A stretch of 64,000 nt of DNA from NCBI RefSeq assembly GCF_040362765.1, contig NZ_BAABWK010000002.1, positions 930,001 through 994,000 on the forward strand. Reading direction: 5' to 3'. The notes under the pieces were generated by a model. The model saw only the letters and a program-made list of their open reading frames with translations. It did no database searches and was not told where the DNA came from. Source of the stretch: Pyruvatibacter sp. HU-CL02332. GTDB lineage: Bacteria > Pseudomonadota > Alphaproteobacteria > CGMCC-115125. This document shows positions 38,706-58,600 of the stretch, in pieces. The position numbers were made by a program, and so were the translations under genes. Every line of letters begins with the position of its first letter. Within the stretch, counting starts at the first letter, position 1.

Positions 38706-38721
38706 CGTTTCCTTCTCTTCC

Positions 38722-39642
38722 TCAGATAGACCAGACCGCTGGCATTCTCGTGTTCCGGAACCGATCGAGCACGTGATGAATCCCTTTTGTCAGGTCATAT
38801 CCGTCTCTGGCAGCAAATCGCGCGATCAGCATACCGTTCCAGGCGCTTGCGGCGGCCCGGCCTGGAAAGTCGGACAACAAGTCGCGCAGCTCTTCGAGCC
38901 GGGCTTCTGCATCGGTTGCGACATAGCGTAAAGTCGCCATTGCACGATTGGGCCCAAGAGCTGCCGGGTGGCCCAGTGTCTGAGACACATTGCCTGCAAC
39001 AGCAAAGGTGTCCGTATGGATGAGATCACCATCGCGACGGATTTCCCAACAATCTGTCAGATCGCCACGTTGGACGCTTTCTCCCATCGCTTCGCGACCA
39101 AAAATGAAAGCCTCGATCCCAAGAAACGTCGCCGTGCCCGACAGCGCAACACTGGTCCGCCGACGCAAATGCCCCCCGTCAAAAACGATTGTTGGCTGAC
39201 CCAGCCACTCAAGGGCTGCGCCGTCGCTGACGTCCAGCGTGACATTGACCACAGCGGGAGTGCCAAGGGATCGATAAATCTTTTCGCACGCCTGCGTGGT
39301 GAGAACAGCTTCCGCTCCTGGTTGAACAAAAGCGGCAAAGCTGAGCTTGTCACCACCCGTGAGCCCGCCACCGAGATTGATCATCACAGCTTCCAGCGGG
39401 GCGCCGTCGCGCGCATTGGGAAAACGGATCTTGAGCGAGCCGCTTTGGTAAATGTCTGAAGGTACCGTCGAGGTGCCATCCAACCGGCACTTTAAGACGC
39501 CTTCGCCCTTGCATCGCTGGAACTGCGCCTGAAGACGAGTTTCCCCACCAGCATCCTCGGCTACCGGAGGCAAGGACCGCGTTGCGGTGCCGCTCTCGGG
39601 ATCGTCTCCTGTCGGCTCATACAGTGAGGAGTTTTCGTACAC
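38722..39642 (-). CDS. ureD: Urease accessory protein UreD (UreH)
   Basis: About 306 residues matching UreD, the scaffold that binds apo-urease and recruits UreF and UreG. Typical segments are [35 protein letters not shown] and [16 protein letters not shown] favour the GTG at 39642, with GGGGA seven bases upstream; ATG 39660 and GTG 39669 are alternatives. All of them lie inside the 3' end of urtE, so the importer and urease genes overlap and are co-translated. Confidence 0.9.
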
Positions 39643-40306
39643 TTTCTGTCCCCATATCATCCTGCACACCGGACGCGACCACGCGCCCTCTGTCCAGGAC
39701 TATGAAAGTGTCGGCTAGCTCTTGGGCAAAATCAAAATATTGCTCAACGAGAAGGATAGCCATGTTCTGCTCATCACGCAGATAGGTAATCGCGCGGCCG
39801 ATATCCTTGATGACGGAAGGCTGAATACCCTCGGTTGGTTCGTCCAACACCATGACATCCGGCCCCATAACCATGGCGCGAGCAATAGCCAATTGCTGTT
39901 GCTGGCCGCCAGACAAGTCACCGCCACGACGCGACAACATGCTTTTTAGAACGGGGAACAGCTCAAAGACATCCTCCGAGACAGTGGTGTTTCTGCCTGT
40001 GGCAAACGCAATCTCGAGATTTTCTTTGACCGTAAGCAACGGAAATATCTCCCGTCCCTGCGGCACATAGGCGATCCCCATTCTGGCCCGTGCAGACGCT
40101 GTTGCATTGGATATCTTCTTTCCCCTTAGCGTAATGGTGCCGCTCTTGACGCGCTGTTGTCCGACAATGCCGCGCAGAAGAGTGGTTTTTCCCACGCCGT
40201 TGCGCCCCATGACGCAGGTTACTTTGCCCGCTTCGGCAGAAAGGTCCACATCCCAAAGAATTTGGGCAGCGCCATAACTGAGATTGAGTCTGCTGATGTT
40301 GAGCAA
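39617..40306 (-). CDS. urtE: Urea ABC transporter ATPase UrtE
   Basis: 229 residues, LivF-like ATPase of the branched-chain-amino-acid-type urea importer. Walker A GRNGVGKTT, signature LSGGQQQQLAIARA, Walker B VMVLDEPTEGIQPS. The real start is almost certainly TTG 40306: it follows the urtD stop by one base, has GGGGAG five bases upstream, and gives the usual family N-terminus MLNISRLNLSYG. A longer frame from 40354 would overlap urtD without a good site. The 3' end overlaps ureD. Confidence 0.94.
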   Translation of the reverse strand: MLNISRLNLSYGAAQILWDVDLSAEAGKVTCVMGRNGVGKTTLLRGIVGQQRVKSGTITLRGKKISNATASARARMGIAYVPQGREIFPLLTVKENLEIAFATGRNTTVSEDVFELFPVLKSMLSRRGGDLSGGQQQQLAIARAMVMGPDVMVLDEPTEGIQPSVIKDIGRAITYLRDEQNMAILLVEQYFDFAQELADTFIVLDRGRVVASGVQDDMGTESVRKLLTV

Positions 40307-40307
40307 T

Positions 40308-41060
40308 TTATCTCCCCAGATAAACTTCAATGACGCGCTCATCGGAGCTGACATGATCGAGCGAGCCTTCCGCCAGCACAGACCCTTCGTGCAGCACGGT
40401 CACGCGCACGTCGAGATCACGAACAAACGTCATGTCGTGCTCCACGACCACGACGGTGCGTGTCTCATTTATCTTTCGCAGCAACTGAGCCGTCTGGGCC
40501 GTCTCGGCGTCGGTCATCCCAGCGACCGGCTCATCCACCAGCAGTAACGCGGGGTCCTGTGCCAGAAGCATCCCGATCTCCAGCCACTGTTTTTGACCGT
40601 GGGATAGCTCAGATGCCATGACCTGTCCGACATCCTTAAGATGGGTGGTCTCCAGGATCTCTGAAATCCGTTCCCGCTTTTCCACAGTGGGTCTTGCGAA
40701 AAGGCGTGAGATCACGTCCCGCCGGTCTTTAAGGGCGAGCAGCAGATTGTCAAAGACGGTGTGGCAGTCAAAGACCGTTGGTTTTTGAAACTTGCGACCT
40801 ACGCCGAGGTTCGCAATCTGCGATTCACTCAACCCGGTCAGGTCATGACGATCCTTGAAGTAGGCGGTTCCGGAATCGGGCCGGGTCTTGCCGGTGATAA
40901 CATCCATCATAGTTGTCTTGCCGGCACCATTTGGACCGATGATGGCGCGCATTTCGCCCTCGGCGATTGCCAGCGACAGATCATTGAGGGCCTTGAACCC
41001 GTCAAAGCTCACACTAATGGCATCAAGATTGAGGAGATGCGGGGTGGTGGATGTTGTCAT
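40308..41060 (-). CDS. urtD: Urea ABC transporter ATPase UrtD
   Basis: 250 residues, LivG-like ATPase: Walker A GPNGAGKTTMMD, LSHGQKQWLEIG (the family's variant of the ABC signature), Walker B ALLLVDEPVAGMT. It pairs with UrtE to energise the UrtBC permeases. ATGA overlap with urtC. Confidence 0.95.
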   Translation of the reverse strand: MTTSTTPHLLNLDAISVSFDGFKALNDLSLAIAEGEMRAIIGPNGAGKTTMMDVITGKTRPDSGTAYFKDRHDLTGLSESQIANLGVGRKFQKPTVFDCHTVFDNLLLALKDRRDVISRLFARPTVEKRERISEILETTHLKDVGQVMASELSHGQKQWLEIGMLLAQDPALLLVDEPVAGMTDAETAQTAQLLRKINETRTVVVVEHDMTFVRDLDVRVTVLHEGSVLAEGSLDHVSSDERVIEVYLGR

Positions 41061-42241
41061 GCACCTGCTCCCGGTGCTTGCTTGGTTTCCACAACATCCT
41101 GGTCACCGTCTTCTGTATCCCTGACCTCAGTTGCCCCATGGGCCTTTGCATTGCGCGCGGGGAAGAAAGATCTCGCAGCGCCGACAATACCGTGCGGCAA
41201 AAACAATGTGACCAGGATGAAGAGAGCACCAAGAGCGAACAACCAAATCTCAGGCATTGCCCCGGTGAACCAGGTCTTGAAACCGTTGACAACAATCGCA
41301 CCGATAATGGGCCCCACCAATGTGCCCCGGCCACCGACAGCAACCCAGATTACGGCTTCAATTGAATTGGCCGGCGAGAATTCACTTGGGTTGATGATAC
41401 CCACCTGCGGTACGTACAAGGCGCCAGCTACGCCCGCCATACATGCAGAGACCACCCATACGAACAGTTTGTAGTTTTCAGCGCTGTAACCAAGAAAGCG
41501 CGTGCGGCTTTCAGCGTCGCGCACCGCCAGCAACACCTTACCAGCCTGGGAGTTCACAATGGCCCTGCAGATAGTCAGGCAAGCAGCAAGAGCCGCGGCT
41601 GTTGCGATGAATAGCCCCACGCGCGTTCCGTCGGACTGTATGTCAAATCCGAGGATTTCCTTGAAATCCGTCAGGCCATTGTTGCCGCCAAGGCCAAGTT
41701 CGTTGCGGAAGAATGCGAGAAGAAGCGCAAATGTCATCGCTTGCGTGATGATCGACAGATAAACGCCCGTCACCCGCGCGCGGAAAGCGAAAACGCCAAA
41801 CGCGAAGGCGAGCAACCCCGGCACAAACAGTACCATCAGCATGGCAAACGGGAATATATCGAAGCCCTGCCAGTACCATGGCAGCTCCTGCCAATTCAGG
41901 AACACCATGAAGTCAGGAAGAATTGGATCGCCATACACCCCACGTGGCCCGATCATCCGCATGAGGTACATCCCCATGGCGTAGCCACCGAGCGCGAAAA
42001 AGGCTCCGTGTCCCAGGGACAAAATTCCGCAGTAGCCCCACACTAGGTCGAGAGCCAAAGCCAGCAAAGCATAGCAAAGATACTTGCCGATCAAAGTGAC
42101 GGAGTAAGTGGAGAGATGGAAGATTGAATCTTCCGGTACGAGCAGGTTGCACAGTGGAACCAGAATGCAAGCAATCAGGAGCGCGATGTAGACGCCACTT
42201 GCAAGGCCCCAGGAGATACCGCTGAGTCTGCGAATGATCAT
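41057..42241 (-). CDS. urtC: Urea ABC transporter permease UrtC
   Basis: 394 residues, LivM-like membrane protein with about ten hydrophobic segments. Family motifs include LDLVWGYCGILSLGHGAFFALGGYAMGMYLM and GRGTLVGPIIGA. A charged C-terminal tail of about 35 residues is unremarkable for UrtC. It overlaps both urtB and urtD by four bases. Confidence 0.95.
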   Translation of the reverse strand: MIIRRLSGISWGLASGVYIALLIACILVPLCNLLVPEDSIFHLSTYSVTLIGKYLCYALLALALDLVWGYCGILSLGHGAFFALGGYAMGMYLMRMIGPRGVYGDPILPDFMVFLNWQELPWYWQGFDIFPFAMLMVLFVPGLLAFAFGVFAFRARVTGVYLSIITQAMTFALLLAFFRNELGLGGNNGLTDFKEILGFDIQSDGTRVGLFIATAAALAACLTICRAIVNSQAGKVLLAVRDAESRTRFLGYSAENYKLFVWVVSACMAGVAGALYVPQVGIINPSEFSPANSIEAVIWVAVGGRGTLVGPIIGAIVVNGFKTWFTGAMPEIWLFALGALFILVTLFLPHGIVGAARSFFPARNAKAHGATEVRDTEDGDQDVVETKQAPGAGA

Positions 42242-43998
42242 GAGTCCACAAACCGTCCCTTAAGTGCGAAGAGCCCTCGAGGACGCCACTGGATAAACAG
42301 GATGATAAAGATCAGGATCAATATCTTGGCTGCAACCGCGCCGGCGAAAGGCTCAAACAATTTGTTTGCTACTCCGAGGGACATCGCCCCAACGAATGTG
42401 CCCCACAAATTGCCCACGCCCCCAAACACAACCACCATGAAACTGTCGATGATATAGGCCTGACCCAGGTTGGGGCTGACATTGTCGATTTGCGACAGGG
42501 CAACGCCGGCTATGCCCGCAACGCCGGAGCCAAGGCCGAAGGTTAGTGCGTCCACCCAACTGGTTTTGACGCCCATGGATTCAGCCATTTGCCGGTTTTG
42601 AGTGACCGCACGCATCTGAGAGCCAAATCGCGTACGCCGGATGAAGGTCAAAAGCACTCCCATCACGATGAGAGAAAAGACAATGATCCAAAGACGCGAT
42701 TCCGTGATCGTCAGCTGACCCACTTCGAATGAGCCGGACATCCAGCTCGGCGCCTGGACCGGTTTGTTGGTCGGACCAAAAATGCTGCGAATGAGCTGCT
42801 GCAAGATCAAGGACAGGCCCCAAGTCGCCAGCAGCGTTTCCAATGGGCGGCCATACAGAAACCGGATAATAGTCCGCTCGATTAGCATGCCTGCGGAGCC
42901 GGATACGATGAAGGCTGCGGGGATTGCGAGAAGCAACGATATTTCAAGCAAACCGGGCGCAACCGACATCAACACCTGCTGAACAACAAAGGCGGTGTAC
43001 GCCCCCAGCATGATCATTTCGCCATGGGCCATATTGATGACGCCCATCACACCAAAAGTAACGGCCAAACCAAAAGCTGCCAGGAGCAGAACCGAGCCAA
43101 GAGAAATGCCGAAGTACACATCCTGCGCCAACTGCCAGTACGACAGTGTCCGCTCTATAGCCTCAATGGCCTCGAGCCTTGCCGTTTCCATTGTCGGATC
43201 GTCTTGTGGGCCAAGGCGCAACAGAGAGTCGAGTGCCGTGCGATCGCCGCGGTCTTTGAGTACAGCCATGGCATCCATAACTGCAGCTGGATCTTCTGGT
43301 GGGCTGGCCAAAATCATGACTGCTCGCGCTTGTTGGAGCGCGTTGGCAATCTTTGGATCCTGTTCAGCCGCGATCGCTTCTTCGATAAATGGCAGGGTCT
43401 CAGGATTTGCGCCTGTAAAGGCGTTCTCGGCAGCCGCCAGGCGGATATCTGGGTCTCCTGAAGTCAGCGATATCCGGGCGATCAGATCACGGAGTACACG
43501 TCGCAATTTGTTGTTCACGCGTACTTTTTTGAGATCACCAGGGACAGCCTGCAGGACTTCACCTGTTGAGGCTGATCTAATCTCACCATCTTTCCCATCC
43601 AGTGCAATCACGATGGGACCATCGGCGATGGCAAACAGTGTTCCCTCGGCTAGCGCTTTGAGGATCGGCAACCCCATTGGATGGTCGAGGGCTGCTATGC
43701 GCGCAACAATTTCAGCTTTCTTCGAAAACCCTGCAACACGCATTTCGTCCAACAGCTGCGGAAGAACCGGCTGGGGCTCAGACTCCAGAGGTCCGGTGAT
43801 TTCTGTCTCTTGGAGTGGAGTGTCGATTGTTCCGACAGGATCACCCAGCGCGCCCTGGCTAAAAGCCGGCTGCGTCAATGCTGCAGCAATTCCTACGGTG
43901 GCCAGCCACAACATGGCGCTTCGCAGTATGATCAACTGCCTTGGCATCACGTGCGCCCACTGGCGAGTTGGGTAGATGTTCATTTTTGGTGCCGGCAT
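42238..43998 (-). CDS. urtB: Urea ABC transporter permease UrtB
   Basis: 586 residues. As is usual for UrtB, a LivH-like permease domain (about 290-580, with NMAHGEMIMLGAY and GLGSGVAGIAGVALSQID) is preceded by a long extracytoplasmic N-terminal region with HEAT-like helical repeats behind a signal peptide. The signal sequence fits best from ATG 43947 (MPRQLIILRSAMLWLATVG); the frame is open to 43998 and the true start is undecided. It is separated from urtA by 155 bases that hold a stem-loop. Confidence 0.95.
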   Translation of the reverse strand: MPAPKMNIYPTRQWAHVMPRQLIILRSAMLWLATVGIAAALTQPAFSQGALGDPVGTIDTPLQETEITGPLESEPQPVLPQLLDEMRVAGFSKKAEIVARIAALDHPMGLPILKALAEGTLFAIADGPIVIALDGKDGEIRSASTGEVLQAVPGDLKKVRVNNKLRRVLRDLIARISLTSGDPDIRLAAAENAFTGANPETLPFIEEAIAAEQDPKIANALQQARAVMILASPPEDPAAVMDAMAVLKDRGDRTALDSLLRLGPQDDPTMETARLEAIEAIERTLSYWQLAQDVYFGISLGSVLLLAAFGLAVTFGVMGVINMAHGEMIMLGAYTAFVVQQVLMSVAPGLLEISLLLAIPAAFIVSGSAGMLIERTIIRFLYGRPLETLLATWGLSLILQQLIRSIFGPTNKPVQAPSWMSGSFEVGQLTITESRLWIIVFSLIVMGVLLTFIRRTRFGSQMRAVTQNRQMAESMGVKTSWVDALTFGLGSGVAGIAGVALSQIDNVSPNLGQAYIIDSFMVVVFGGVGNLWGTFVGAMSLGVANKLFEPFAGAVAAKILILIFIILFIQWRPRGLFALKGRFVDS

Positions 43999-44153: not shown

Positions 44154-45434
44154 TCAGTGCATTTCTGCAAGACCAAGGCACTTTTCTGTCGTGGTGTCGA
44201 AGTTCCCGCAGTTGAGCTCAACCCAGTCGGACTTCAGGTCCTTGGAACCTGGAAGGAAATCCGTCCATGCGTCGCCCGGCACGAGACCTTCGGTTTGCCA
44301 AACAACATCGAACTGGCCGTCAGCCTGAATTTCGCCGATGAGGACTGGCTTCGTGATGTGATGGTTTGGGAGCATCACTGACATACCACCTGTGAGGTTA
44401 GGCACTTCGATACCCGGCATGGCTGCAATTACTGCATCAACATCTGCAGTGCCTGCTGCTTCCACAGCCTTCACCCACATGTTGAAACCAATGTAGTGGG
44501 CTTCCATCGGGTCATTGCTGACGCGATCAGGGTTCTCGGTGAACTCTTTCCATGTCGAGATGAACTCGGCGTTCTCAGGAGAGTCAACGGACTGGAAGTA
44601 GTTCCAAGCCGCGAGGTGACCGACCAGCGGGCCTGTATCAAGACCTGCCAACTCTTCTTCACCCACAGAGAATGCAACCACCGGGATGTCTTCAGCCTTG
44701 ATACCCTGATTGGCCAACTCCTTGTAGAAAGGTACGTTTGCATCGCCATTGATGGTTGAAACCACGGCTGTCTTTTTGCCGGCTGACCCAAACTCGCGAA
44801 TGTCAGAAACAATCGTCTGCCAGTCAGAATGACCAAATGGCGTGTAGTTGATGAGGATATCTTCTTCAGCAACACCCTTGTCCTTGAGATACGCCTCAAG
44901 GATTTTGTTGGTCGTACGCGGATACACATAGTCCGTGCCGGCCAGAACCCAACGTTCGACGCTCTCTTCTTCCATGAGATAGTCAACCGCAGGGATTGCC
45001 TGCTGGTTCGGAGCCGCGCCGGTGTAGAACACGTTGCGGGAGCTCTCTTCACCTTCGTACTGCACTGGATAGAAAAGGATGCCGTTCAGCTCCTCAACCA
45101 CCGGGAGAACGGATTTGCGAGATACCGATGTCCATGCGCCAAAGACGACAGACACTTCATCTTCGGACAGAAGCCCGCGCATTTTTTCAGCGAACAGAGG
45201 CCAGTTGGAAGCAGGGTCAACCACCACTGGTTCGAGCTGGCGACCAAGGACACCGCCCTTGGCATTTTGCTGCTCGATCAGCATCAGCATGGCGTCTTTG
45301 AGAGTCGTCTCACTGATCGCCATAGTGCCGGACAGGGAATGCAGAATACCAACCTTGATTGGGTCTTCTGCATAAGCAGCGCTTGAGGCCATCGTCAATG
45401 CGAGGCCGGCAATCGCGCCTTTCACAATCTTCAT
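44154..45434 (-). CDS. urtA: Urea ABC transporter substrate-binding protein UrtA
   Basis: 426 residues with a signal peptide (ends SSAAYA) and the UrtA fold of the LivJ type: IKVGILHSLSGTMAISE, LPVVEELNGILFYPVQYEGEE, FYTGAAPNQQAIPAVDYL, GTDYVYPRTTNKIL. It captures urea in the periplasm for UrtBCDE. It follows the outer-membrane barrel gene by 42 bases with no terminator, so it may be read from that gene's promoter. Confidence 0.97.
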   Translation of the reverse strand: MKIVKGAIAGLALTMASSAAYAEDPIKVGILHSLSGTMAISETTLKDAMLMLIEQQNAKGGVLGRQLEPVVVDPASNWPLFAEKMRGLLSEDEVSVVFGAWTSVSRKSVLPVVEELNGILFYPVQYEGEESSRNVFYTGAAPNQQAIPAVDYLMEEESVERWVLAGTDYVYPRTTNKILEAYLKDKGVAEEDILINYTPFGHSDWQTIVSDIREFGSAGKKTAVVSTINGDANVPFYKELANQGIKAEDIPVVAFSVGEEELAGLDTGPLVGHLAAWNYFQSVDSPENAEFISTWKEFTENPDRVSNDPMEAHYIGFNMWVKAVEAAGTADVDAVIAAMPGIEVPNLTGGMSVMLPNHHITKPVLIGEIQADGQFDVVWQTEGLVPGDAWTDFLPGSKDLKSDWVELNCGNFDTTTEKCLGLAEMH

Positions 45435-46289: not shown

Positions 46290-46599
46290 GGAAATCCCCC
46301 AAGGAATTGAGTCAAAACGGGCCGGGGAATCACCTGTTTTCAAGCCAGTTCATGCCCCGCACGTCAAAGCTCACATCCATGGTGCGGCGCAACAATACGT
46401 CATTGTGCGTATGTTCCGCCCTTGGGAGGCGTGGAGGATGGTAAACGGTCCACACTGTGGCGCTTTTGCACTTGCTCATGTGAGACCCGCAGATATGCAG
46501 GTACAAATCTGAGGCGGAGTGTGGATGTTAGGTCCTACACTTGGCTGGCACCGCATCATGTCGCTGCCGCAACATCACGTCCTTTGAAAGACAGCGTCA
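46290..46599. other. Divergent intergenic region (porin/urt and kinase genes)
   Basis: About 310 bases without a gene. It must carry promoters for the leftward porin-urt-ure genes and the rightward transporter-kinase. An imperfect dyad GCAACAAT-acgtc-ATTGTGC lies at 46389-46408 and could be an operator. I find no convincing sigma-54 element here. Confidence 0.4.
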
Positions 46600-49500
46600 T
46601 TGGCAATTCCAAAGCAGAAAGTTGTTCCCCAGAGGCGCAGCTACAACCAATGGGTCGTCAATGAGACTCTGGAAGACTTCGCCTTGCGCTTTACCGCGCG
46701 AAAGGCCCGGGGTGGATCCATTTTTCGGGTCACCAACACTGCCCTAGGGACCGTTTCGTTTCTGGTCCTGGAAGCGATTGGTGCATCCATTACGCTTGCC
46801 TATGGCTTTACCAACGCTGTGACCGCCATCCTGGTGGTTGGCCTGGTTATCTTCCTGCTTGGGTTGCCACTGAGTTATCATGCGTCGCGCAATGGGTTGG
46901 ACATTGATCTCCTCACCCGCGGAGCCGGATTTGGCTATGTCGGCTCGACCATCACATCACTGATTTATGCGTCATTTACCTTCATCTTCTTTGCTCTAGA
47001 AGCCGCCATCATGGCGCTGGCGCTAGAGATGTGGCTTGGCGTGCCCACTTACCTGGGGTACCTCGTGACTGCCCTTGTCGTGTTGCCCTTGGTGACTCAC
47101 GGCTTTACGTACCTCAGTAAATTCCAGACCTGGACGCAGCCCGTTTGGCTCGGTCTGCAGATTATTGCAGTGATTTCGGTGGTGAATTCCGATGCGCTGG
47201 CCTTTGCCGACTGGGCGGTCTTTGCTGGCGAGCTTGGTGATTCAGATGCGCCCTTCAACCTTCTTTTGTTCGGCAGTGCGTGCAGTCTCATTTTTCCGCT
47301 CGTCGCTCAGAATGCGGAACAAGTTGACTACCAGCGGTTCATGCCGGAACAGACGCGCAAAAACCGCCTGGCTTGGTTGGCATCCGTCGTGGCCGCGGGA
47401 CCTGGTTGGGTTATCCCGGGTGTGCTCAAGATGCTGCTCGGATCTTTTTTCGCTGTCCTTCTCCTCAACATCGGCTTTTCGCTCGAACAAGCAGGACAGC
47501 CGACCGAGATGTACCTGTATGCTTTTACTCAGGCATTCGGGGACACAGGTTTCACAATCGGCGTTGCGGCTGTGTTCGTCATCCTGTCGCAACTGAAGAT
47601 AAACGTGACCAACGCCTATGCCGGGTCTATCGCGTGGTCGAACTTTTTCGCCCGTCTTACACACAGCCACCCTGGTCGCGTTGTTTGGCTGTTCTTCAAT
47701 GTTTCATTGGCGTTGATGCTCATGGAGCTTGGAATCTACCAGACATTTGAACGGACATTGGGCCTGTACGCCAATATTCCCCTGGCGTGGATGGCAACCG
47801 TGGCCGCAGACCTTGCGATCAACAAACCGCTTGGACTTTCGCCAAAGAAGATCGAGTTCAGGAGGGCATACCTACCCAACTTCAACCCGGTTGGTCCGGT
47901 GAGCATGACCATCGCCTCCGTCATCGGCATTGGCATTTATGCCGGGATTGCAGGCATAGAAAACCGGCCTTACGCGACCTTCGCGTCACTGCTCATACCT
48001 TTCTTTCTGGTGCCACTCATCGCATGGCTGACCAAGGGAAAATACTATCTCGCTCGCCCTGTCATAGAGGTCGCAGGCCCTGGTGAAGAAACTGAGTGCT
48101 GCATCTGTCAAAATGCATTTGAGTCTCAGGACATGGCGTCCTGCCCTGTTTATGCAGCGCCCATATGCTCGCTATGCTGTGGGCTGGATGCAAGATGCCA
48201 CGACGCATGTAAAGACGATGGCGATACGCGGCCTGAATCTACTATTCTACTTCGTATGTCGCGTTACCTCGCCCAATTCACCGGCAACATATTGAACGCG
48301 CGCCTGCTGAAGTATCTGGGCGCACTGGCCATCGGCGTCGCTCTCGCTGCCATGCTGCTCAGCCTCGCATACCTGCATCTGCTCGACTCACCGGGTCTGG
48401 ACAGGGACACTATCGAAGCGACCCTTATTGCCTGTTTCTTCATTATCGTCTTCGTCATCGCGATCGCGATTTGGCCGTTTCTTCTTGCAAAGGAAAGCAG
48501 TCTGGCGACGCGGCTGGAAAGCCAGGCTCAAACAGAGCTTCTCTACAAAGAAATCAGGGCTCGTCGCGAGACTGACGCTGAACTGCAGCTCGCCAAGGAA
48601 CTTGCCGAGGCCCGCAATGAAGCGAAGACAAAATACGTTCAAGGCACCAGCCATGAGCTAAGAACGCCACTGAATGCGATACTGGGGTATGCGCAGCTTC
48701 TAGAAACAAAACCCGATCTGCCTCGAGAGCTGGAGCATGGATTGAGCGTCATCCGACGTAGTGGCGCGCATCTTTCAAGCCTAGTCGATGGCTTGCTCGA
48801 TATTTCCATGATCGAAGCGGGAAAATTCAAAACCTACAGCGATGAAGTTCCGATCCGCGAGTTTCTGGATCAACTGGTGGATATGTTCACGTTGCAGGCG
48901 CGCGACAAAGGCCTCTCCTTCATTTTTGAGCAGCCCGAGCACATGGCGCGGATCGTACGCGTGGATGAAAAACGACTTCGGCAGGTGCTGATCAATCTGG
49001 TATCCAATGCCATTCGATACACCCACACTGGCAGTGTGACACTGCGATTGAGTTACTCCGGTGAAGTGGCTCGCTTCGACATCATCGATACCGGTGTTGG
49101 CATCGTTAACGAAGACCTTGAGCGCATTTTTGTACCCTTTGAGCGTCTGGAGTCGCCTCAGCGACCAGCAACGAAGGGGTCAGGTCTTGGACTGACGATT
49201 ACCAAGTTGCTTGTCGAGGCAATGGGCGGCGAGATTACCGTTACTAGTCAACCCGGTACCGGAAGTTGCTTCACCATACGGATTTTCCTGCCGGCGGTGA
49301 CCCACCCCACAAAGGCTGAGACGAAAGTCCGGACGCCAATTGTTGGGTATGAAGGCCCTCGTCGGACCATCCTGATTGTAGATGACGACACCCACCACCT
49401 TGATTTTATGCGCGACGCCCTTAGCCAGGCCGGACTGTTTGTTCTTACAGAGGATAGCGGCGAAGGCTGCATCGTTACCGCCAGCACATGCAGTCCAGAC

Positions 49501-49992
49501 GCTGTTTTACTCGATATCTCGCTGCCCGGCATCGATGGTTGGACGGTCGCGAGAGAGTTGCGCAAGAACGCGGATCCGAACATCAAGATCATCATGGTCT
49601 CGGCCAATGCACGAAATGATCCCAAGCGGGCGGAGGAATCTGAATTCCACAATGCCTATTTGATGAAACCGGTGCACTTGCCGACCTTGATGAATCAACT
49701 TAAGTCCATCTTCGGCTTCAAGTGGATCTATCAACCTCCTCCCGGAGATGATGAGGCAGAACCTGAAGCAATTGCCCCAGTAGCAACGAGAGTCATCCCG
49801 GCAGATGACATCGAACGTCTGTTGGAACTGGCAAAAATAGGCCACGCGAGGGGCATATTGGACGCGCTCGATGCTATATCAGCACGCCATCCGGAAGCTG
49901 ACATGTCTCTCAATCAGATGCGCGTGATCGCGGAAAGTTGTGACTTTGAAACGCTTCAAATTGAACTCGAGAAGCTGATCGCAAATGATTAG
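46600..49992 (+). CDS. NCS1-type transporter fused to a hybrid histidine kinase
   Basis: 1130 residues. Residues 1-490 are a full NCS1-like permease of about twelve helices (YNQWVVNETLEDFALRF, TLGTVSFLVLEAIGASITLAYGF, FPLVAQNAEQVDYQRFMPE). Next comes a cysteine-rich patch at about 500-545 (ECCICQNAF...CSLCCGLDARCHDAC), then two more helices (about 570-630). A coiled segment leads to HisKA (His685 in SHELRTPLNAILGY), HATPase (NLVSNAIRYT, DTGVGI, GSGLGLTI), a receiver (Asp972 in LLDISLPGIDG) and a C-terminal helical domain (about 1065-1130). NCS1 proteins carry nucleobases, hydantoins and allantoin, so the transporter part probably senses a nitrogen-rich solute. The start is a TTG with a weak ribosome site. 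It overlaps the next gene by eight bases. Confidence 0.9.
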   Translation: MAIPKQKVVPQRRSYNQWVVNETLEDFALRFTARKARGGSIFRVTNTALGTVSFLVLEAIGASITLAYGFTNAVTAILVVGLVIFLLGLPLSYHASRNGLDIDLLTRGAGFGYVGSTITSLIYASFTFIFFALEAAIMALALEMWLGVPTYLGYLVTALVVLPLVTHGFTYLSKFQTWTQPVWLGLQIIAVISVVNSDALAFADWAVFAGELGDSDAPFNLLLFGSACSLIFPLVAQNAEQVDYQRFMPEQTRKNRLAWLASVVAAGPGWVIPGVLKMLLGSFFAVLLLNIGFSLEQAGQPTEMYLYAFTQAFGDTGFTIGVAAVFVILSQLKINVTNAYAGSIAWSNFFARLTHSHPGRVVWLFFNVSLALMLMELGIYQTFERTLGLYANIPLAWMATVAADLAINKPLGLSPKKIEFRRAYLPNFNPVGPVSMTIASVIGIGIYAGIAGIENRPYATFASLLIPFFLVPLIAWLTKGKYYLARPVIEVAGPGEETECCICQNAFESQDMASCPVYAAPICSLCCGLDARCHDACKDDGDTRPESTILLRMSRYLAQFTGNILNARLLKYLGALAIGVALAAMLLSLAYLHLLDSPGLDRDTIEATLIACFFIIVFVIAIAIWPFLLAKESSLATRLESQAQTELLYKEIRARRETDAELQLAKELAEARNEAKTKYVQGTSHELRTPLNAILGYAQLLETKPDLPRELEHGLSVIRRSGAHLSSLVDGLLDISMIEAGKFKTYSDEVPIREFLDQLVDMFTLQARDKGLSFIFEQPEHMARIVRVDEKRLRQVLINLVSNAIRYTHTGSVTLRLSYSGEVARFDIIDTGVGIVNEDLERIFVPFERLESPQRPATKGSGLGLTITKLLVEAMGGEITVTSQPGTGSCFTIRIFLPAVTHPTKAETKVRTPIVGYEGPRRTILIVDDDTHHLDFMRDALSQAGLFVLTEDSGEGCIVTASTCSPDAVLLDISLPGIDGWTVARELRKNADPNIKIIMVSANARNDPKRAEESEFHNAYLMKPVHLPTLMNQLKSIFGFKWIYQPPPGDDEAEPEAIAPVATRVIPADDIERLLELAKIGHARGILDALDAISARHPEADMSLNQMRVIAESCDFETLQIELEKLIAND

Positions 49993-50905
49993 CAGTCCCG
50001 ATGATCGCCCTGTTTTTCTCGTTGTTGATGACGACACTGATTCACTGAGTCTTCTGAGTGACGTCCTCGAAGGCGCGGGCATTTCGGCCTTGGTAGCGCC
50101 GAGCGGAACCGCCGCCCTCGCCATTCTCAGCAGGATTGTGCCTGACGGCATTCTGATGGATGCGGTCATGCCGGGTCTTGATGGTTTTGAGACGTGTCGG
50201 CAGATCAAGCAGAATCCAGAATGGGCCGGTATTCCACTGATCTTCATGACCGGCCTCAAGGATACAGAAAACATCGTTCGTGGCTTCACGGCAGGTGGTA
50301 TTGACTACATCACCAAGCCATTTCGTATTGAAGAGCTAACCGCCAGACTCCTGTCGCACATTGCGCAGTCTCGGATGGCCAAATCCACTCGGCACGCTCT
50401 GGATTTCACAGGATCGCCACTATTGGCTGTTTCGGCCAACGGCATCCCATCGTGGTGGAATGCCCCTGCGGATGAGCTTCTGAGACAGCTGCTGCCAGGT
50501 CAGGCAATTGCTGCCGGCTCGGAAATATCCGGCCTCAGCGATATGTTGATTTCAGCTGGTGTACTTGAGGGCACCACAGCAACAATCGAGGGCATCAGCG
50601 GGAAGACGCTGATTGCAAAACTCCTCGGCACCGTTGAGCGCGATGAGTTCCTCATTGAGTTGAGCATTCAGCATTCTAGTGAGGACACCGATCACCCAAT
50701 TGCGACGCTAAGGGAGAGCTTCGGCCTTACAAAAAGAGAGGCAGAGGTCTTGCTATGGGTCACCCGCGGCAAGGCCAACCGCGACATAGCGGAAATCATG
50801 AGCTGCAGTCCTAGAACCATCAACAAGCACCTTGAACAGGTCTTCAGCAAGATGAATGTGGAAAACAGAACAGCAGCGGCAATAGCGGCAGTGTCCAAAA
50901 TCTAG
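49985..50905 (+). CDS. LuxR-type response regulator, partner of the transporter-kinase
   Basis: 306 residues: an N-terminal receiver (acidic D15-D17, acceptor Asp59 in ILMDAVMPGLDG, Lys in YITKPF), a middle segment of about 100 residues without a clear domain (about 130-230), and a LuxR helix-turn-helix at about 240-300 (LTKREAEVLLWVTRGKANRDIAEIMSCSPRTINKHLEQVF). The ATG lies inside the end of the kinase gene (eight-base overlap), so the two are certainly a pair. The next gene downstream is the guanidine operon, 475 bases away, a natural target. Confidence 0.92.
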   Translation: MISSPDDRPVFLVVDDDTDSLSLLSDVLEGAGISALVAPSGTAALAILSRIVPDGILMDAVMPGLDGFETCRQIKQNPEWAGIPLIFMTGLKDTENIVRGFTAGGIDYITKPFRIEELTARLLSHIAQSRMAKSTRHALDFTGSPLLAVSANGIPSWWNAPADELLRQLLPGQAIAAGSEISGLSDMLISAGVLEGTTATIEGISGKTLIAKLLGTVERDEFLIELSIQHSSEDTDHPIATLRESFGLTKREAEVLLWVTRGKANRDIAEIMSCSPRTINKHLEQVFSKMNVENRTAAAIAAVSKI

Positions 50906-51173: not shown

Positions 51174-51185
51174 GTTGTTAAGTTC

Positions 51186-51306
51186 GATAGCAGCTAGGGT
51201 TCCGGCCGGTGGTGATCTTGTGGATCTGCCGGTGTCTGGTCCGAGAGCTGCGGCCCTACCGGTCAACAGCGGTTGGGTACACGGCGGGACAAAAGCCCGG
51301 GAGGTC
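51186..51306 (+). promoter_or_regulatory. Guanidine-I riboswitch (ykkC subtype 1)
   Basis: The conserved blocks of the ykkC/guanidine-I aptamer are present in order: CTAGGGTTCCGG at 51194-51205, CTGGTCCGAGAGC at 51236-51248, and ACACGGCGGGACAAAAGCCC from 51279, continuing GGGAGG. GCAGCT/AGCTGC at 51190-51195 and 51246-51251 can close the first stem. This class binds guanidinium and usually turns genes on. It precedes the ABC importer and carboxylase genes by about 75 bases, which reclassifies the 'urea carboxylase' operon as a guanidine operon. Confidence 0.92.
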
Positions 51307-51372: not shown

Positions 51373-51379
51373 ATTGGCT

Positions 51380-52453
51380 ATGAAGAATTTTTCACGACTA
51401 CTGATTGCCCTCACAACATCTGCGAGTCTGATGTTCGCAGGCGCCTCGGCTGCGCTAGCGGAGGAAAAAACAGAGTTCAAGCTGGCGTGGTCGATCTATG
51501 TTGGTTGGATGCCCTGGGGATGGGCTGCCGACCAGGGAATCGTCGACAAGTGGGCTGACAAGTACGACATCAAAATCGAGGTTGTTCAGTTCAACGATTA
51601 TATCGAGTCCATAAATCAGTACACGGCTGGTGCCTTTGACGGCGTTACCGCCACAAACATGGACATTCTGGCTATCCCGTCTGTAGGCGGCGTGGACACA
51701 ACGGCCCTGATCGTGGGTGACTTCTCCAACGGGAATGATGCCCTCATTCTCAAGGACGCAGATACGCTGGAAGCAGTTGTCGGTCAGAAGGTCAATCTGG
51801 TTGAGCTGTCGGTTTCTCACTATCTGCTTGCACGAGCGCTTGAGAGCATTGGCAAGGCTGAAAAAGATATCAGCGTCGTCAACACTTCTGACGCCGACAT
51901 GATTGCTGCCTATCAGACCGATGATGTGACAGCTGTAGTGACCTGGAACCCGTTGGTTGCAGAAATTCTGGAAACGCCCGGCGCCAACAAGGTTTTTGAC
52001 TCATCCGACATTCCGGGTGAAATCATGGACCTCACGGCTGTGAACACGGAGACTCTGGCGGACAACCCTGCGTTCGGCAAAGCTCTCGCAGGCGCTTGGT
52101 ATGAGACTATGTCCATCATGCTGTCGGACACACCAGAAGGCGAGGCCGCACGGACGGCCATGGGTGAAGCATCCGGCACTGATCTTGCCGGCTACGACAT
52201 GCAGCTTGCATCCACAGAAATGTTTGCAACGCCCTCAGACGCTGTGACGTTCACAACATCCAAGGATGTCGAGGCAACCATGCAGGCGGTTCGCATGTTC
52301 CTCTTTGAACGTGGCCTCCTCGGTGACGGTGCTGATAGCCCTGACATCGTAGGAATCGGCTTTCCTGACGGGTCAATCCTCGGCGACGAAGAAAATGTGA
52401 AGTTCCGTTTCAATGCCGACTACATGGCCATGGCAGCCGACGGCACTCTCTAA
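51380..52453 (+). CDS. ABC transporter substrate-binding protein of the guanidine/urea-carboxylase region
   Basis: 357 residues with a signal peptide (ends ASAALA). It belongs to the NMT1/TauA/SsuA-like binding proteins and fits the subgroup found beside urea carboxylases (TIGR03427-like): FKLAWSIYVGWMPWGWAADQGIVDKWADKY, VTATNMDILAIPSVGGVDTT, VNLVELSVSHYLLARAL. It should deliver the substrate, most likely guanidine given the riboswitch, to the permease encoded next. ATG 51380 has TGGAG about ten bases upstream; a TTG two codons earlier is less likely. Confidence 0.9.
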   Translation: MKNFSRLLIALTTSASLMFAGASAALAEEKTEFKLAWSIYVGWMPWGWAADQGIVDKWADKYDIKIEVVQFNDYIESINQYTAGAFDGVTATNMDILAIPSVGGVDTTALIVGDFSNGNDALILKDADTLEAVVGQKVNLVELSVSHYLLARALESIGKAEKDISVVNTSDADMIAAYQTDDVTAVVTWNPLVAEILETPGANKVFDSSDIPGEIMDLTAVNTETLADNPAFGKALAGAWYETMSIMLSDTPEGEAARTAMGEASGTDLAGYDMQLASTEMFATPSDAVTFTTSKDVEATMQAVRMFLFERGLLGDGADSPDIVGIGFPDGSILGDEENVKFRFNADYMAMAADGTL

Positions 52454-52509
52454 CGCAACCTGCATGAGCCTTCCGCATCACAACTAGACACTGGAAAGCA
52501 GGCACTCGC

Positions 52510-53349
52510 ATGCCCTCTACCCGACGCGAACGGCTCATCAACCGACACCCTGGACCGGCGGCCGGGCGACTACTGGCACTTGCACCCTTCGTGCTCTTGT
52601 TGCTCGCCTATGCCGTCGGTTCAGAAATCAGACTTGCCGACAACCCGAATGACAAACTGCTGCCAAGCTTCAGCGCAATTGCAGATGCGGTGCAGCGGAT
52701 GGCCTTTGAGCCAGACAGGAGAACCGGCAGTTACCTCTTGTGGGAAGACACAGTAGCCAGCCTCTCGCGCCTCGGTGCAGGCGTGCTTCTGGCAACCTTC
52801 ATGGGTGCTGTTGTTGGCATTGCCGTCGGCCTTATCCCATATGCTCGTCACACCATGTCTGCCTTCATTGCCGTGTTCGCAATGATCCCACCTCTTGCTG
52901 TCTTGCCCATTCTGTTCATTACCTTCGGCCTGGGTGAGCTCTCCAAAGTTGTTTTGATTGTATTTGGAATAGCCCCATACATGACGCGCGACATTGCCCT
53001 TCGCGTTTCTGAACTTCCTGCCGAACAGATCGTCAAGGCGCAGACCCTTGGGGCGTCGACCTGGCACATCGCATGGCGGATTGTGCTCCCTCAGATGCTG
53101 CCACGCATTATTGATACGTTGCGCCTGTCGCTAGGTGCGGCATGGCTTTTCCTTATTGCCGCAGAAGCGATCGCGGCTCAAAGCGGCCTTGGATACCGCA
53201 TCTTTCTCCTACGGCGATATCTGGCCATGGACGTGATCCTTCCTTACGTCTTCTGGATCACATTCCTTGCCGTTGGCTTTGACTACGCATTGCGCAAATA
53301 CCAGGGCTGGGCTCATCCCTGGTTCGCAAGCCAAAGGGCACAAGCATGA
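52510..53349 (+). CDS. ABC transporter permease (guanidine operon)
   Basis: 279 residues, about six membrane helices, TauC/SsuC-like. The cytoplasmic EAA loop is EQIVKAQTLGASTWHIAWRIVLPQMLP near residue 175. It forms the channel of the importer with the ATPase encoded next, which overlaps it by four bases (ATGA). It is 56 bases after the binding-protein gene. Confidence 0.92.
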   Translation: MPSTRRERLINRHPGPAAGRLLALAPFVLLLLAYAVGSEIRLADNPNDKLLPSFSAIADAVQRMAFEPDRRTGSYLLWEDTVASLSRLGAGVLLATFMGAVVGIAVGLIPYARHTMSAFIAVFAMIPPLAVLPILFITFGLGELSKVVLIVFGIAPYMTRDIALRVSELPAEQIVKAQTLGASTWHIAWRIVLPQMLPRIIDTLRLSLGAAWLFLIAAEAIAAQSGLGYRIFLLRRYLAMDVILPYVFWITFLAVGFDYALRKYQGWAHPWFASQRAQA

Positions 53350-54110
53350 CCGAAGTCAGTGTCCAGGATGTCTGGATGGAGTATGGCGACCAGATTGTTC
53401 TGGAGCGCATCAACTTTGACGTGCCGGCCCACTCGTTCATTTCACTTGTGGGTCCGTCTGGATGTGGCAAGTCGACATTTCTACGGCTCTTGCTCAGTCA
53501 GGAAAGAGCAACACGTGGAGCCATACTCATTGACGGCAACCCCATTGCTCCCAACCCAGAGCCTGACAGAGGCGTTGTGTTCCAGAAATACTCCGTGTTT
53601 CCACATCTGACAGCTGTCGAAAACGTAATGCTCGGGCTTGAGATTGAGCGCGGCGGCATCTTTGCTCGATTGCATGGGCGTGCGCGGCGCACAGCGCGTG
53701 CAGAAGCAATGGAAATGCTTGAGGGCGTTGGACTTGGAGACTCGGCCAAGAAGTATCCCTCTGCGCTTTCAGGTGGCATGCAGCAACGCCTTGCCATTGC
53801 TCAAGCGCTTATAATGAAGCCTCGGGTCCTGCTGCTGGACGAACCTTTCGGCGCTCTTGATCCAGGTATCCGGTCTGAAGTACATGACTTGATGTTGCGG
53901 CTTTGGTGGGACACCAAAATGACCGTGTTCATGGTCACTCACGATTTGAGTGAGGCCTTTTACCTTGGCACGCGGGTCATCGCCTTTGACCGCAAACGCA
54001 AAAGAGAAGAGGAACTGGAGCGCTACGGCGCGACGATTGCCTTTGATACCCTGACCGACCCCGCCCCCTTTATCGCCAAGCTCAAGGCTCAGGAGGCAGC
54101 GGCAGGATGA
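53346..54110 (+). CDS. ABC transporter ATPase (guanidine operon)
   Basis: 254 residues, TauB/SsuB-like: Walker A GPSGCGKST near 38, Q-loop VFQKYSVFP, signature LSGGMQQRLAIAQA, Walker B VLLLDEPFGALD and switch His in MVTHDLSEAF. A charged C-terminal stretch (FDRKRKREEELERYG) follows, as in other ATPases of urea carboxylase-linked importers. Confidence 0.93.
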   Translation: MTEVSVQDVWMEYGDQIVLERINFDVPAHSFISLVGPSGCGKSTFLRLLLSQERATRGAILIDGNPIAPNPEPDRGVVFQKYSVFPHLTAVENVMLGLEIERGGIFARLHGRARRTARAEAMEMLEGVGLGDSAKKYPSALSGGMQQRLAIAQALIMKPRVLLLDEPFGALDPGIRSEVHDLMLRLWWDTKMTVFMVTHDLSEAFYLGTRVIAFDRKRKREEELERYGATIAFDTLTDPAPFIAKLKAQEAAAG

Positions 54111-54121
54111 AAGTCTGTTCT

Positions 54122-54139
54122 CGCCGGGACGACCCGGCG
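54122..54139 (+). other. Intercistronic hairpin between importer and catabolic genes
   Basis: CGCCGGG-acga-CCCGGCG, a perfect 7-bp stem with a tetraloop, 12 bases after the ATPase stop. No U tract. It may protect or partly insulate the importer part of the message. Confidence 0.5.
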
Positions 54140-54233
54140 GTTGGCGCAATGCCACCTCACGAGACATGGCCCAGGACGACCTGGTGTGAAACGAACGGCT
54201 TAACAAGCCGGCTTCGACCAGATGGAGGTGTCT

Positions 54234-55004
54234 ATGAGACCCCGAAGCGAGACGCATCAAAGTGAAATCATCCTCAGTGAAACCATGCAGGGCGGCGCCC
54301 ATTGGTCACTGACTATCAGGGCGGGCTTCACGCTGCGCCTAACGGATAGTGAAGGCGGCGCCAATGTCGGCATGCTTTTCTACAATCCGGCAAATCCGCT
54401 GGAACGCTACAACGCACCTGACACTCTCAAATGTCAGCACACCTTCAAGCTGACCAAAGGCAATTGCCTCTATTCAGATATGGGTCGGATTTTCTGCTCC
54501 ATCGTCGAAGACACACATGGTTGGCACGACACCGTCTGCGGCAACAGCACGCGCGCGGGTCTGGAGGGTCGCTACGGCGCGATGACGTACCAGGAGTACC
54601 GAAACGAGCGTGCTCAGAACGGTCTGGACAGTTTTCTTGTTGAAGGTGCGAAATACGGATTGGGCAAAAAGGATCTTGCTGCAAACGTAAATTGGTTCAG
54701 CACGGTCAAGACCGATGCTGACGGCACACTTGGATTTGTTCAAGACGGTGGGACAACTGGTGCCCATGTAGAACTGCGCTTTGAGATGGATACACTGGTG
54801 CTGCTTCATACCTGCCCTCACCCCTTGGATCCGTCGCCGACCTACGCTCCCAAACCCGTACGTGTCGAGCTCTTTGAAGCGCAACCTGTCGCCGACGATG
54901 ATTTCTGCAGGACATCGCGCCCGGAAAACGGACGGGGTTTTGAAAATACGGAGCTGTATCGCCGCGGGTCAATCGGCTCTTCACCGTCGATGGGTGGGAA
55001 TTGA
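54234..55004 (+). CDS. Urea carboxylase-associated protein 1 / carboxyguanidine deiminase subunit
   Basis: 256 residues matching UAAP1 (TIGR03424-like, DUF1989 fold): [76 protein letters not shown], and [20 protein letters not shown]. Published work on guanidine catabolism assigns the two associated proteins to a heteromeric carboxyguanidine deiminase (CgdAB) that turns carboxyguanidine into allophanate and ammonia; conserved Cys, His and Asp here fit a metal-bound active site. ATG 54234 is preferred over 54222 because GGAGGTG lies just upstream. Confidence 0.9.
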
Positions 55005-55008
55005 GATC

Positions 55009-55659
55009 ATGATCAAGGAAAGCCCATTCCACTCCGACAAGGCACTCTACCGCGAGATCGTGGAGGCAGGCGCATACTGGATGCATGTGGTCGAAAAGGG
55101 CCAGGTGCTCAGAATTCTCGATCTTGAGGGAAACCAGGCAGCGGACACCCTGTTTTACAATGCCACTGATCCAACGGAGCGCTATAGCGCAATTGATACC
55201 ATCCGCGAGCAGGGCAACGTCTACCTCACTGCCGGGACGAAACTTCTTTCAACCGAAAACAATGTGATGCTGGAAATAACGGCTGACACGTGCGGGCAGC
55301 ACGACACGTTGGGCGGAGCTTGCGCAACGGAATCCAATACCGTGCGCTATGCCCATGACACCAAGTACATGCATGCGTGTCGAGACAGCTGGCTTCTGGC
55401 CGTCGCTGAAAATGATGGGTACGACATGTCAAAACGTGACATCACGCATAACATCAACTTCTTCATGAATGTGCCGGTAACGCCCGAAGGTGGCCTGACT
55501 TTCGAGGATGGCATCAGTGCGCCAGGAAAATACGTGGAAATGCGCGCTGAGATGGATGTGCTTGTGCTCGTTTCCAACTGCCCGCAATTGAATAATCCCT
55601 GCAACGCGTACAACCCGACCCCGATCGAAATGCTGATCTGGGACGGGGCGTCGGCGTGA
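55009..55659 (+). CDS. Urea carboxylase-associated protein 2 / carboxyguanidine deiminase subunit
   Basis: 216 residues matching UAAP2 (TIGR03425-like), homologous to the preceding gene: [84 protein letters not shown]. It begins four bases after the UAAP1 stop. The two paralogues are expected to form a heteromeric deiminase. The frame is open upstream, but that part is only the shadow of UAAP1. Confidence 0.9.
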
Positions 55660-55688
55660 CGCGCGGCTACAAGGGAGAGTCCAGAAAA

Positions 55689-58600
55689 ATGTTTAACACT
55701 GTTCTTGTCGCCAATAGAGGCGAGATAGCCTGCCGCATCATCCGAACCCTGAAGGTTATGGGTGTGAAGTCGGTTGCCATCTACTCAGAAGCAGACCGAC
55801 ACTCTTTGCATGTTCAGCAAGCGGACGAGGCCTATTGCGTAGGTCCCGCCGCGGTGTCTGAAAGCTACCTCAACATCCCAAAGATCCTCTCCATCTGCCG
55901 AGAGGCTTCGGTGGACGCTGTCCATCCCGGCTATGGGTTCTTGAGCGAGAATGCCGACTTTGCGGAGCGGCTTGGGGAAGATGGCATTGTGTTCATTGGC
56001 CCAAGACCAGACCACCTGCGCGAGTTTGGGACCAAGCATACAGCTCGCGCTCTTGCTCAGGAGGCAGGTGTACCTCTCCTGCCCGGCACAGAACTGCTTC
56101 TCAGTCTGCGTGAAGCGCTTACAGCAGCCGACGACATTGGATATCCGGTGATGCTCAAGAGCACGGCCGGCGGTGGCGGCATCGGCCTGCAGCTTTGCCA
56201 GTCCAGCACTGAACTCGAAAAGGCGTTCGAGTCAGTCCGCCGCATGGGCGAAGCCAATTTCGGAAATGCCGGTGTGTTTCTGGAAAAATTTGTAAGCGAT
56301 GCCCGCCATATAGAGGTTCAGATATTTGGTGATGGCGAGGGCAATGTCGTTACCCTCGGCGAGCGCGACTGCTCGCTGCAACGGCGCAACCAGAAGGTTG
56401 TAGAAGAGACTCCCGCGCCGGGCATCTCTGACGAGCAACGCATTGCCCTTGCAGATGCTGCCTACAGTCTTGGTTCTTCAGTTTCCTATGCCTCCGCGGG
56501 AACGGTCGAATTCATCTATGACATCCGCGAGAAGCAATTCTACTTCCTCGAAGTCAACACGCGGTTGCAGGTCGAACATGGTGTCACTGAAGAAGTCTTT
56601 GGGATTGACCTGGTCGAGTGGATGGTGCGGTTGGCTGGCGGCGATTTAGCACCACTCGCCGAAAAGTCTCTGACCGCATCAGGGGCAGCTATGGAGGTGC
56701 GCATCAATGCGGAAGACCCCGGTCGCAACTTCATGCCCAGCGCAGGTCGGCTGACGGAGGTTGGTTTTGGTCCCAACACCCGCGTGGATGGGTGGATCGA
56801 GACGGGCACAGTGGTGACGTCTCACTATGATTCGCTGCTTGCTAAGCTCATCGTCAAAGGCAAAGACAGAACCGATGCACTGGTGAAGCTACAACAGGCG
56901 CTCGAGGATACATCGCTCTATGGAATAGAAACCAACCTGGACTATCTGGGCACCATCGCCGCATCGAGCATGTTCGCCGACGCCAACGTCTCAACACGGG
57001 TGCTAGGAGAGTTCGACTATCAACCAAGACGAATTGAGGTGATAGCCGCCGGCGCGCAATCGAGTGTTCAGGACCTTCCCGGTCGCGTCGGGTATTGGGC
57101 CGTTGGGGTTCCGCCAAGCGGGCCAATGGATGACTTATCGTTCCGCCTCGCCAACCGACTTGTGGGCAACGAAGAATCTGCTGCCGGGCTTGAGTTTGCC
57201 GTCACCGGCCCAACATTGCGATTTGCCTCTGCCGCAACCATTGCTCTTGCCGGCGCGAACATGTCGGCGAAACTTGATGGCGTTGAAATACCCAATTGGG
57301 AAGCGGTGGAGGTTGCGGCCGGTCAAACCCTGACACTCGGTGCCATTGTTGGCGCTGGCAACCGGACGTATCTCGCTATTCGCAATGGGATTGATGCACC
57401 GTCCTATCTGGGAAGCCGATCCACTTTCATTTTGGGTGGCTTTGGTGGCCATGCGACAGGACAGCTGCGGACCGGTGACATCATTCGGTTGAATCGCGAT
57501 GGCGCGACCGCCGCAACGCTGCCGCCGATCATCCCGAGCAACCGCCCCGCCCTTACGAAGGAATGGGAGCTCGGTGTCCTCTATGGCCCCCATGGCGCGC
57601 CGGACTTCTTTACTGAGTCCGACATCGAAACGCTGTTTGAAACATCCTATGAGGTTCATTTCAACAGCGCACGAACGGGCGTCCGTCTGATTGGACCTAA
57701 ACCCGAATGGGCCAGAGAGGATGGAGGCGAAGCTGGGCTGCATCCCTCCAACATCCACGACAATGCGTATGCCGTTGGAACCATCGATTTCACCGGAGAC
57801 ATGCCGATTATTCTGGGGCCTGACGGCCCAAGTCTTGGAGGCTTCGTCTGTCCGGTCACTCTGGCAAACGCAGAACTCTGGAAAATGGGTCAATTGCACC
57901 CGGGTGACCGCGTCCGCTTTGTACCTCTGACAGCTGACGAGGCAGTTGCCCTTGATGAGAAACGAAAGCATTTTGTCGAGCGGCCTACAGTGGCAGCGCC
58001 TGAAATCATCTCGCACACAGCGTCTCGTGGGCACAGCGCCCAACAACCGGCAATTTTGGGAAAGGGGGAAACCAACGGCATTGAAGTGGTGTATCGGCGC
58101 GCGGGCGACGCTTATCTTCTCATAGAGTTCGGGCCGCTTGTTCTGGATCTGCGGTTGCGATTGCAGGTGACGGCTTTGATGGCGTGGCTCGAAGAGGCCG
58201 CGCCTGACGGCATCATTGATCTCACCCCGGGTATCCGATCCCTTCAGGTCCATTATGACCCAACATGCTTGTCGACAAGCCAGCTGCTTGACTTCCTCAA
58301 GCAGGCCGAGGGTGAAATGGCTCGCGCAGAAGATCTGACGGTGCCGAGCCGCGTGGTCCATCTGCCGTTGAGCTGGCGTGACGAACAAACTGAACTCGCC
58401 ATGCAGAAGTACCAAGAGCTTGTTCGCGCGGATGCACCCTGGTGCCCGTCAAATGTCGAGTTCATTCGCCGCATCAACGGTTTGGCTGATGAGCAGGCGG
58501 TCAAAGACATTGTGTTTGATGCCGACTATCTGGTCCTTGGCCTAGGTGACGTGTATTTGGGCGCACCAGTGGCAACGCCGATAGATCCACGACATCGTCT

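Follow-up and report, generated by a model that had tools for sequence, protein, structure and literature searches.

The 64-kb stretch of DNA analysed here (the window), which sits in a 3.45-Mb genome, encodes a hybrid histidine kinase whose N-terminal domain is predicted to have an NCS1-type transporter fold. We propose that this kinase is a transceptor-like urea sensor that, through a REC-LuxR regulator, switches on the porin-urtABCDE-urease genes, and we put the probability of this reading at about three in four. The domain order of the protein, its conserved pairing with the regulator, the conserved synteny and a kinase-dependent palindrome were established by sequence analysis and structure prediction. 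As nitrogen sources, urea and small amides are of major importance, and the family supplies for them a candidate sensor, a candidate regulator, a predicted DNA site and predicted target promoters.

Domain organization of the kinase and of its partner regulator

The kinase ORF (46600..49992, + strand, TTG start) encodes 1130 residues in the order NCS1-Cys-2TM-HisKA-HATPase-REC. Pfam models delimit HisKA (676-741), HATPase_c (789-897) and REC (924-1034), all above the cut-offs; HisKA and HATPase_c together cover 48625..49290 and REC covers 49369..49701 (+ strand). The protein contains SHELRTPL, with the phospho-acceptor histidine, and LLDI motifs, which are mostly kept among homologues. With these three domains, it is a hybrid histidine kinase; its REC domain is C-terminal, there is no obvious HPt domain and no PAS domain was found by Pfam. 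The N-terminal part consists of the transporter-fold domain (residues ~28-480, 46681..48039, + strand), a module containing eight cysteines and two extra membrane helices (residues ~567-627, 48298..48480, + strand), the latter visible both in the hydropathy profile and in the AlphaFold model. The ORF, the Pfam matches, the model and the structure comparison thus bear out the fusion of NCS1, Cys-rich, kinase and receiver parts described in the initial annotation, which had also correctly placed a Cys-rich patch between two membrane blocks: residues 500-537 follow the transporter-fold helices and precede the two further ones.

The partner response regulator (306 aa, 49985..50905, + strand) is composed of a REC domain (residues 12-122), a middle region of about 115 aa and a GerE/LuxR HTH (residues 248-301), as defined by Pfam. 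Its ORF overlaps that of the kinase by 8 nt, as had been noticed from the sequence, and the pairing of the two proteins is conserved. A Rhodoblastus genome bin (L035, 9641-14299) has the two proteins in a single open frame of 1553 aa, either a true fusion or an artefact of the assembly.

The transporter-fold domain

Residues 1-490 did not reach any Pfam model, PF02133 included. The NCBIfam CodB model matched the kinase with 24.5 bits (E 1e-5; cut-off 326 bits), and hhalign with CodB alone gave a weak match (E 0.0034, probability 9.6). Since Pfam and PDB sequence searches gave nothing significant for the window protein, a structural route to the NCS1 assignment was taken. A kinase-free relative from Klebsiella does pass PF02133 (38.1 bits, cut-off 23.5).

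An AlphaFold model of residues 1-660, built with 32 relatives, had a mean pLDDT of 76.6. The best structural match of this model was CodB, with a Z score of 32.8 over 397 residues (3.6 Å, 16% identity), followed by Mhp1, with Z scores of 26.7-29.5 (best 29.5) and 14% identity; the matched span extended from residue 24 to residues 480-511. The other LeuT-fold families listed scored 25.7 or less. SLC5-type chains align with the model too, at Z values of about 22-23, and the ranking favours NCS1. Because CodB and Mhp1 top all other LeuT-fold families listed, the identification of this domain as an NCS1 permease, proposed from the sequence and missed by PF02133, is right at the fold level: as modelled, the N-terminal domain is of the NCS1 type in fold and divergent in sequence.

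Distribution and gene neighborhoods of the family

The sensor module was found in 63 loci of named genomes (52-64% identity), in about 50 genomes of an even sample of 398 across the phylum and, in a plasmid collection, in 529 records, 342 of which are from Klebsiella. The family spans alpha-, beta- and gammaproteobacteria, together with hundreds of Klebsiella and rhizobial plasmids in that collection. The neighborhoods were surveyed in 58 kinase loci of about 20 kb each, 56 of which came from the even sample of Pseudomonadota and two from the search for relatives. Genes for fmd-type uptake and hydrolysis of short amides, true urt genes or urease genes adjoin the kinase in 56 of the 58. The most common context is an fmd-type urea/amide ABC operon (37 loci; 36 with formamidase, and 20 with aliphatic amidase as well), followed by urease (7), urt (6), urt plus urease (4) and formamidase only (2); one of the remaining two loci is a contig of 4.8 kb and the other is without any urea/amide genes. 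The 63 named loci agree with this picture. It has been proposed, given its amidase neighbors, that the fmd-type ABC cluster carries acetamide or formamide and not urea (PMC3098086). In the two Klebsiella plasmids that were examined, the sensor module lies beside fmd-type urt genes and formamidase.

The same module also occurs without a kinase. Kinase-free paralogues are located in urease clusters in Klebsiella and Acinetobacter, adjoin formamidase in Tsukamurella and Moraxella, and directly precede an aliphatic amidase in Arthrobacter U41; the paralogue of Methylovirgula adjoins the kinase pair, together with formamidase and amidase. Among the paralogues examined, two plasmid copies had no urea/amide neighbors. 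Since these paralogues mostly adjoin urease, formamidase or amidase, there is good evidence, of a genomic kind, that the NCS1-type fold of this family handles urea and short amides. In the tree of the sensor module, the window protein groups with Parvibaculum (100/100), next to an fmd-type relative (96/91), and the type of neighborhood switches several times across the tree, which suggests that ligand preference shifted repeatedly between amides and urea.

In two loci (L127 and L147) the NCS1-Cys module is attached to another type of kinase, which is not a hybrid, in a protein of about 885 aa; both loci have formamidase nearby and lack the palindrome described below. Near the kinase pair of another locus (L158, 13488-13651, − strand) a TwoAYGGAY RNA motif was found (RF01731), whose 46 bits are slightly above the cut-off.

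The predicted target genes

As stated in the initial annotation, the kinase is located between urea and guanidine operons, with urt and urease genes upstream on the − strand and a guanidine/urea-carboxylase operon downstream. The first gene of the predicted target operon (45477 to 46289/46343, − strand) encodes a protein with a signal peptide that we take to be a porin-like outer-membrane protein and possibly a urea/amide channel of the outer membrane. It has no Pfam or NCBIfam match, and a 60% identical counterpart occupies the same position in Parvibaculum indicum (L006). It is followed, on the same strand, by the gene of the urea-binding protein UrtA (44154..45434; 565 bits with TIGR03407) and by urtBCDE (39617..43998). 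UrtA, UrtB and UrtC exceed the cut-offs of their families (TIGR03407, TIGR03409 and TIGR03408, respectively), and UrtD and UrtE were assigned by gene order and homologues. In the urease cluster (34274..39669, − strand), UreC (36100-37809) and UreG (34274-34894) match annotated records and the other subunits, with the accessory genes, were assigned by order. A search for the formamidase FmdA in the window's own genome gave an empty answer, which as weak evidence makes urea a likelier local ligand than formamide. A match to RF02514 (5' ureB small RNA; 102.7 bits) lies antisense to the urease genes, at 37368-37656 on the + strand, and the same model also matched in L006, L077 and L158.

A palindrome upstream of the kinase and urtA genes

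A motif search in the 420 bp upstream of 43 fmd-type kinases, from which the window was excluded, gave nATACGTCa-tt-TgACGTATn. The search imposed palindromic symmetry, so that the evidence lies not in the symmetry itself but in the recurrence of the motif in held-out loci. With the window thus kept out, the family palindrome is ATACGTCA-nn-TGACGTAT, a mark of the divergent promoters. Of 59 held-out loci, 54 have their highest-scoring site, as judged over the entire locus, no more than 600 bp upstream of the kinase. The site goes with urtA: if an urt-type locus has this gene 2-6 kb from the kinase, the top site is 98-133 bp upstream of urtA, and a urease-type locus with a distance of 6 kb has a site of 13.6 bits at 146 bp upstream of the gene. 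The urtA promoters of kinase genomes in which the kinase is by urt or urease, and urtA in or near the neighborhood, scored 21-30 bits (4/4), and none of 40 control promoters of urtA from kinase-free genomes reached 15 bits (best 6.6). Of 12 fmd-type genomes that also possess a separate, true urt operon, 11 lack the palindrome at that operon, so that not all urea operons are controlled by the system. The site is predicted to be bound by the partner regulator.

In the window the only strong match is AATACGTCATTGTGCGTATG (46394..46413), which scores 20.5 bits, the next best site in the 64 kb having 8.5 bits. Since the best score in 100 simulated 64-kb windows was 19.9 bits, the significance of this score is no more than moderate when taken by itself, and the case depends on where the site lies and on its conservation. 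The site lies in the region between the divergent porin-urt and kinase genes, and the probable start codon (ATG) of the porin-like gene follows after about 105 bp; the same gene order in P. indicum comes with a 22-bit site. The pattern ATACGYN6RCGTAT has two matches in the genome, of which the window site is the only intergenic one; the other (C1:965019, 10.8 bits) was discarded because it falls within a long open frame and is probably due to chance.

Some loci count against the proposed control. In several of the urease type the site is weak or takes a variant form, TACGCC...GGCGTA. In L216-L219 and L129, where the kinase is by urease and urtA elsewhere, the variant TACGCCA-nn-TGGCGTA is located upstream of urtA. 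The Tistrella-type loci L073 and L172 likewise have a strong palindrome upstream of the kinase and no urea/amide genes nearby; either the kinase itself or genes located elsewhere must be their target.

Proposed mechanism

According to the mechanism we propose, the NCS1-type transporter-fold domain would bind urea or, in the majority of relatives, a short amide (formamide or acetamide, for instance), and a conformational change would travel through the Cys module and the two extra helices to the kinase. The phosphate would then pass to the co-encoded REC-LuxR regulator, a dimer of which would bind the palindrome at 46394-46413 and activate the divergent porin-urtABCDE-urease genes, and perhaps the regulator's own genes too. 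We infer urea as the ligand and activation, not repression, as the sign of the control, and the sensor may have retained transport. The earlier suggestion that a urea-like nitrogen solute is sensed and that the adjacent urea genes are controlled is supported by the nearly universal synteny with urt, fmd or ure genes and by the palindrome, which tracks urtA.

In a different, rather unlikely reading, the transporter-fold domain serves chiefly to anchor the protein in the membrane or carries out active transport, and the kinase reads another signal, such as cytoplasmic nitrogen status or a proton/sodium flux, that is incidentally of use for urea/amide genes. The residues common with the kinase-free paralogues are kept, so that transport may persist, and a parallel is offered by the debate on CbrA, which has been argued to perceive its signal in the cytoplasm: according to the work quoted in PMC9100948, its SLC5 domain is not essential for signal perception, and the transporter domain of the window protein need not be the sensor either. 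Against this stand the good conservation of the sensor module (52-64% identity), the urea/amide neighborhoods that most kinase-free paralogues keep, and the two genomes in which the module, although joined to a different, non-hybrid kinase, is still near formamidase.

A broader proposal, which we regard as evenly balanced, is that these proteins form a widespread, uncharacterised class of NCS1-type transceptor kinases for urea and short-chain amides, whose paralogues are still kinase-free urea/amide permeases and in which a metal-binding Cys module couples the fold to the kinase. If true, one fold would be both sensor and carrier for the same ligands, and the natural kinase-free paralogues let transport and sensing be compared within it.

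Comparison with known systems

CbrA, CrbS and RpuS are SLC5/STAC histidine kinases (PMC13022988, PMC9100948, PMC5715377), in which, as here, a linker module connects a LeuT-fold transporter domain with the kinase part. Two of them, CrbS and RpuS, are hybrids that contain REC and are paired with a LuxR-family regulator, and RpuS/R regulates a nutrient transporter gene; the window has the same arrangement of transporter-fold domain, linker, hybrid kinase and adjoining LuxR-type regulator. However, its transporter domain is, by the structural ranking, more probably NCS1-type (CodB/Mhp1) than SLC5, its linker consists of the eight-Cys module and two helices with no STAC recognised by Pfam, and its predicted targets are urea/amide ABC genes, whereas theirs are acetate, pyruvate and histidine genes. 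The initial annotation had named SLC5-type fusions such as CbrA as known and an NCS1 version as less familiar (Z of 32.8 for CodB vs. about 22-23 for SLC5). The best reading of the family is that of an uncharacterised NCS1 counterpart of CbrA, CrbS and RpuS, which we class as a transporter-fused kinase outside the SLC5/STAC family.

The recruitment of a nitrogen-solute transporter as the sensory module of a kinase is also seen in Ks-Amt5, a fusion of an Amt ammonium transporter with a histidine kinase that binds its ligand without translocating it (PMC5764959), but the Amt fold is unrelated and the ligand is ammonium. The present family adds one more kind of transporter to those known from such fusions with kinases (SLC5 and Amt). 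With respect to CodB and Mhp1, the domain described here is fused to a kinase, and its expected ligand is urea or an amide and not cytosine or hydantoins. Amide utilisation genes, an ABC transporter included, are controlled by AmiC/AmiR (PMC13209695), and similar targets are predicted here. In that system, however, the sensor AmiC resembles periplasmic binding proteins and AmiR acts as an antiterminator (PMC13209695), unlike the kinase and REC-LuxR pair. The chromosomal urtABCDE/fmdA/amiE cluster is without amiC and amiR (PMC13209695), which leaves room for another regulator such as this one. In the open-access papers searched, we found no NCS1-type or urea/amide membrane sensor kinase.

The guanidine operon

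The guanidine utilisation operon (51374..61125, + strand), a neighbor of the kinase pair, encodes an ABC transporter, two DUF1989 proteins, a carboxylase and an allophanate hydrolase. The initial annotation suggested that the kinase coordinates it with the urea operon, sensing guanidine or several nitrogen solutes. The position of the kinase between both operons and the resemblance of guanidine to urea speak for this view, as does the fact that three genomes of the same genus lack both urtA and a full-length carboxylase: among the sampled genomes of the genus, both modules are therefore confined to this species, and they may adjoin because they were acquired together. Nevertheless, no guanidine genes were found in the 58 survey loci or in the 63 named ones, so that the co-occurrence with nitrogen-compound operons, proposed as a check, held for urea/amide operons (56/58) and failed for guanidine. 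No palindrome was found at the guanidine promoter (maximum 1.0 bit in 50800-51400), which carries a guanidine-I riboswitch instead (51183..51305, + strand; RF00442, 84 bits, gathering score 63). This element is RNA-based and independent of the kinase, and accounts by itself for the control of the operon downstream. On the grounds of synteny, missing palindrome and separate riboswitch we rejected the coordination as very unlikely; the kinase probably does not control the guanidine genes, which are not among its predicted targets. Nor does any neighborhood point to allantoin or hydantoin, the other ligands that had been suggested.

The cysteine module

The module between the transporter fold and the two extra helices (residues 500-537, 48097..48210, + strand) is a putative metal-binding element, zinc-knuckle- or treble-clef-like, modelled by AlphaFold with moderate confidence as a beta-hairpin followed by a helix. 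The linker region had no significant match in Pfam. The cysteines of the module (500, 503, 515, 523, 526, 527, 533 and 537) are invariant among kinase-type homologues, the pattern being kept in all 166 complete ones scanned, and from this conservation the module is predicted to bind metal. That it is itself the sensor (of metal or redox state, e.g. of the nickel that urease requires), with the NCS1 domain secondary, is most improbable despite this invariance, since the majority of relatives adjoin formamidase or amidase and not urease, and the reduced or degenerate module of kinase-free transporters fits a structural role. In the kinase-free relatives of Klebsiella, Acinetobacter and Moraxella only CxxC...CxxC remains, and in the actinobacterial ones the module is degenerate, with some or most cysteines lost. 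This pattern suggests one metal site that the kinases share with the transporters and another that is characteristic of the kinases; the kinase-free paralogue of Methylovirgula, a near relative of the kinases, keeps all eight cysteines.
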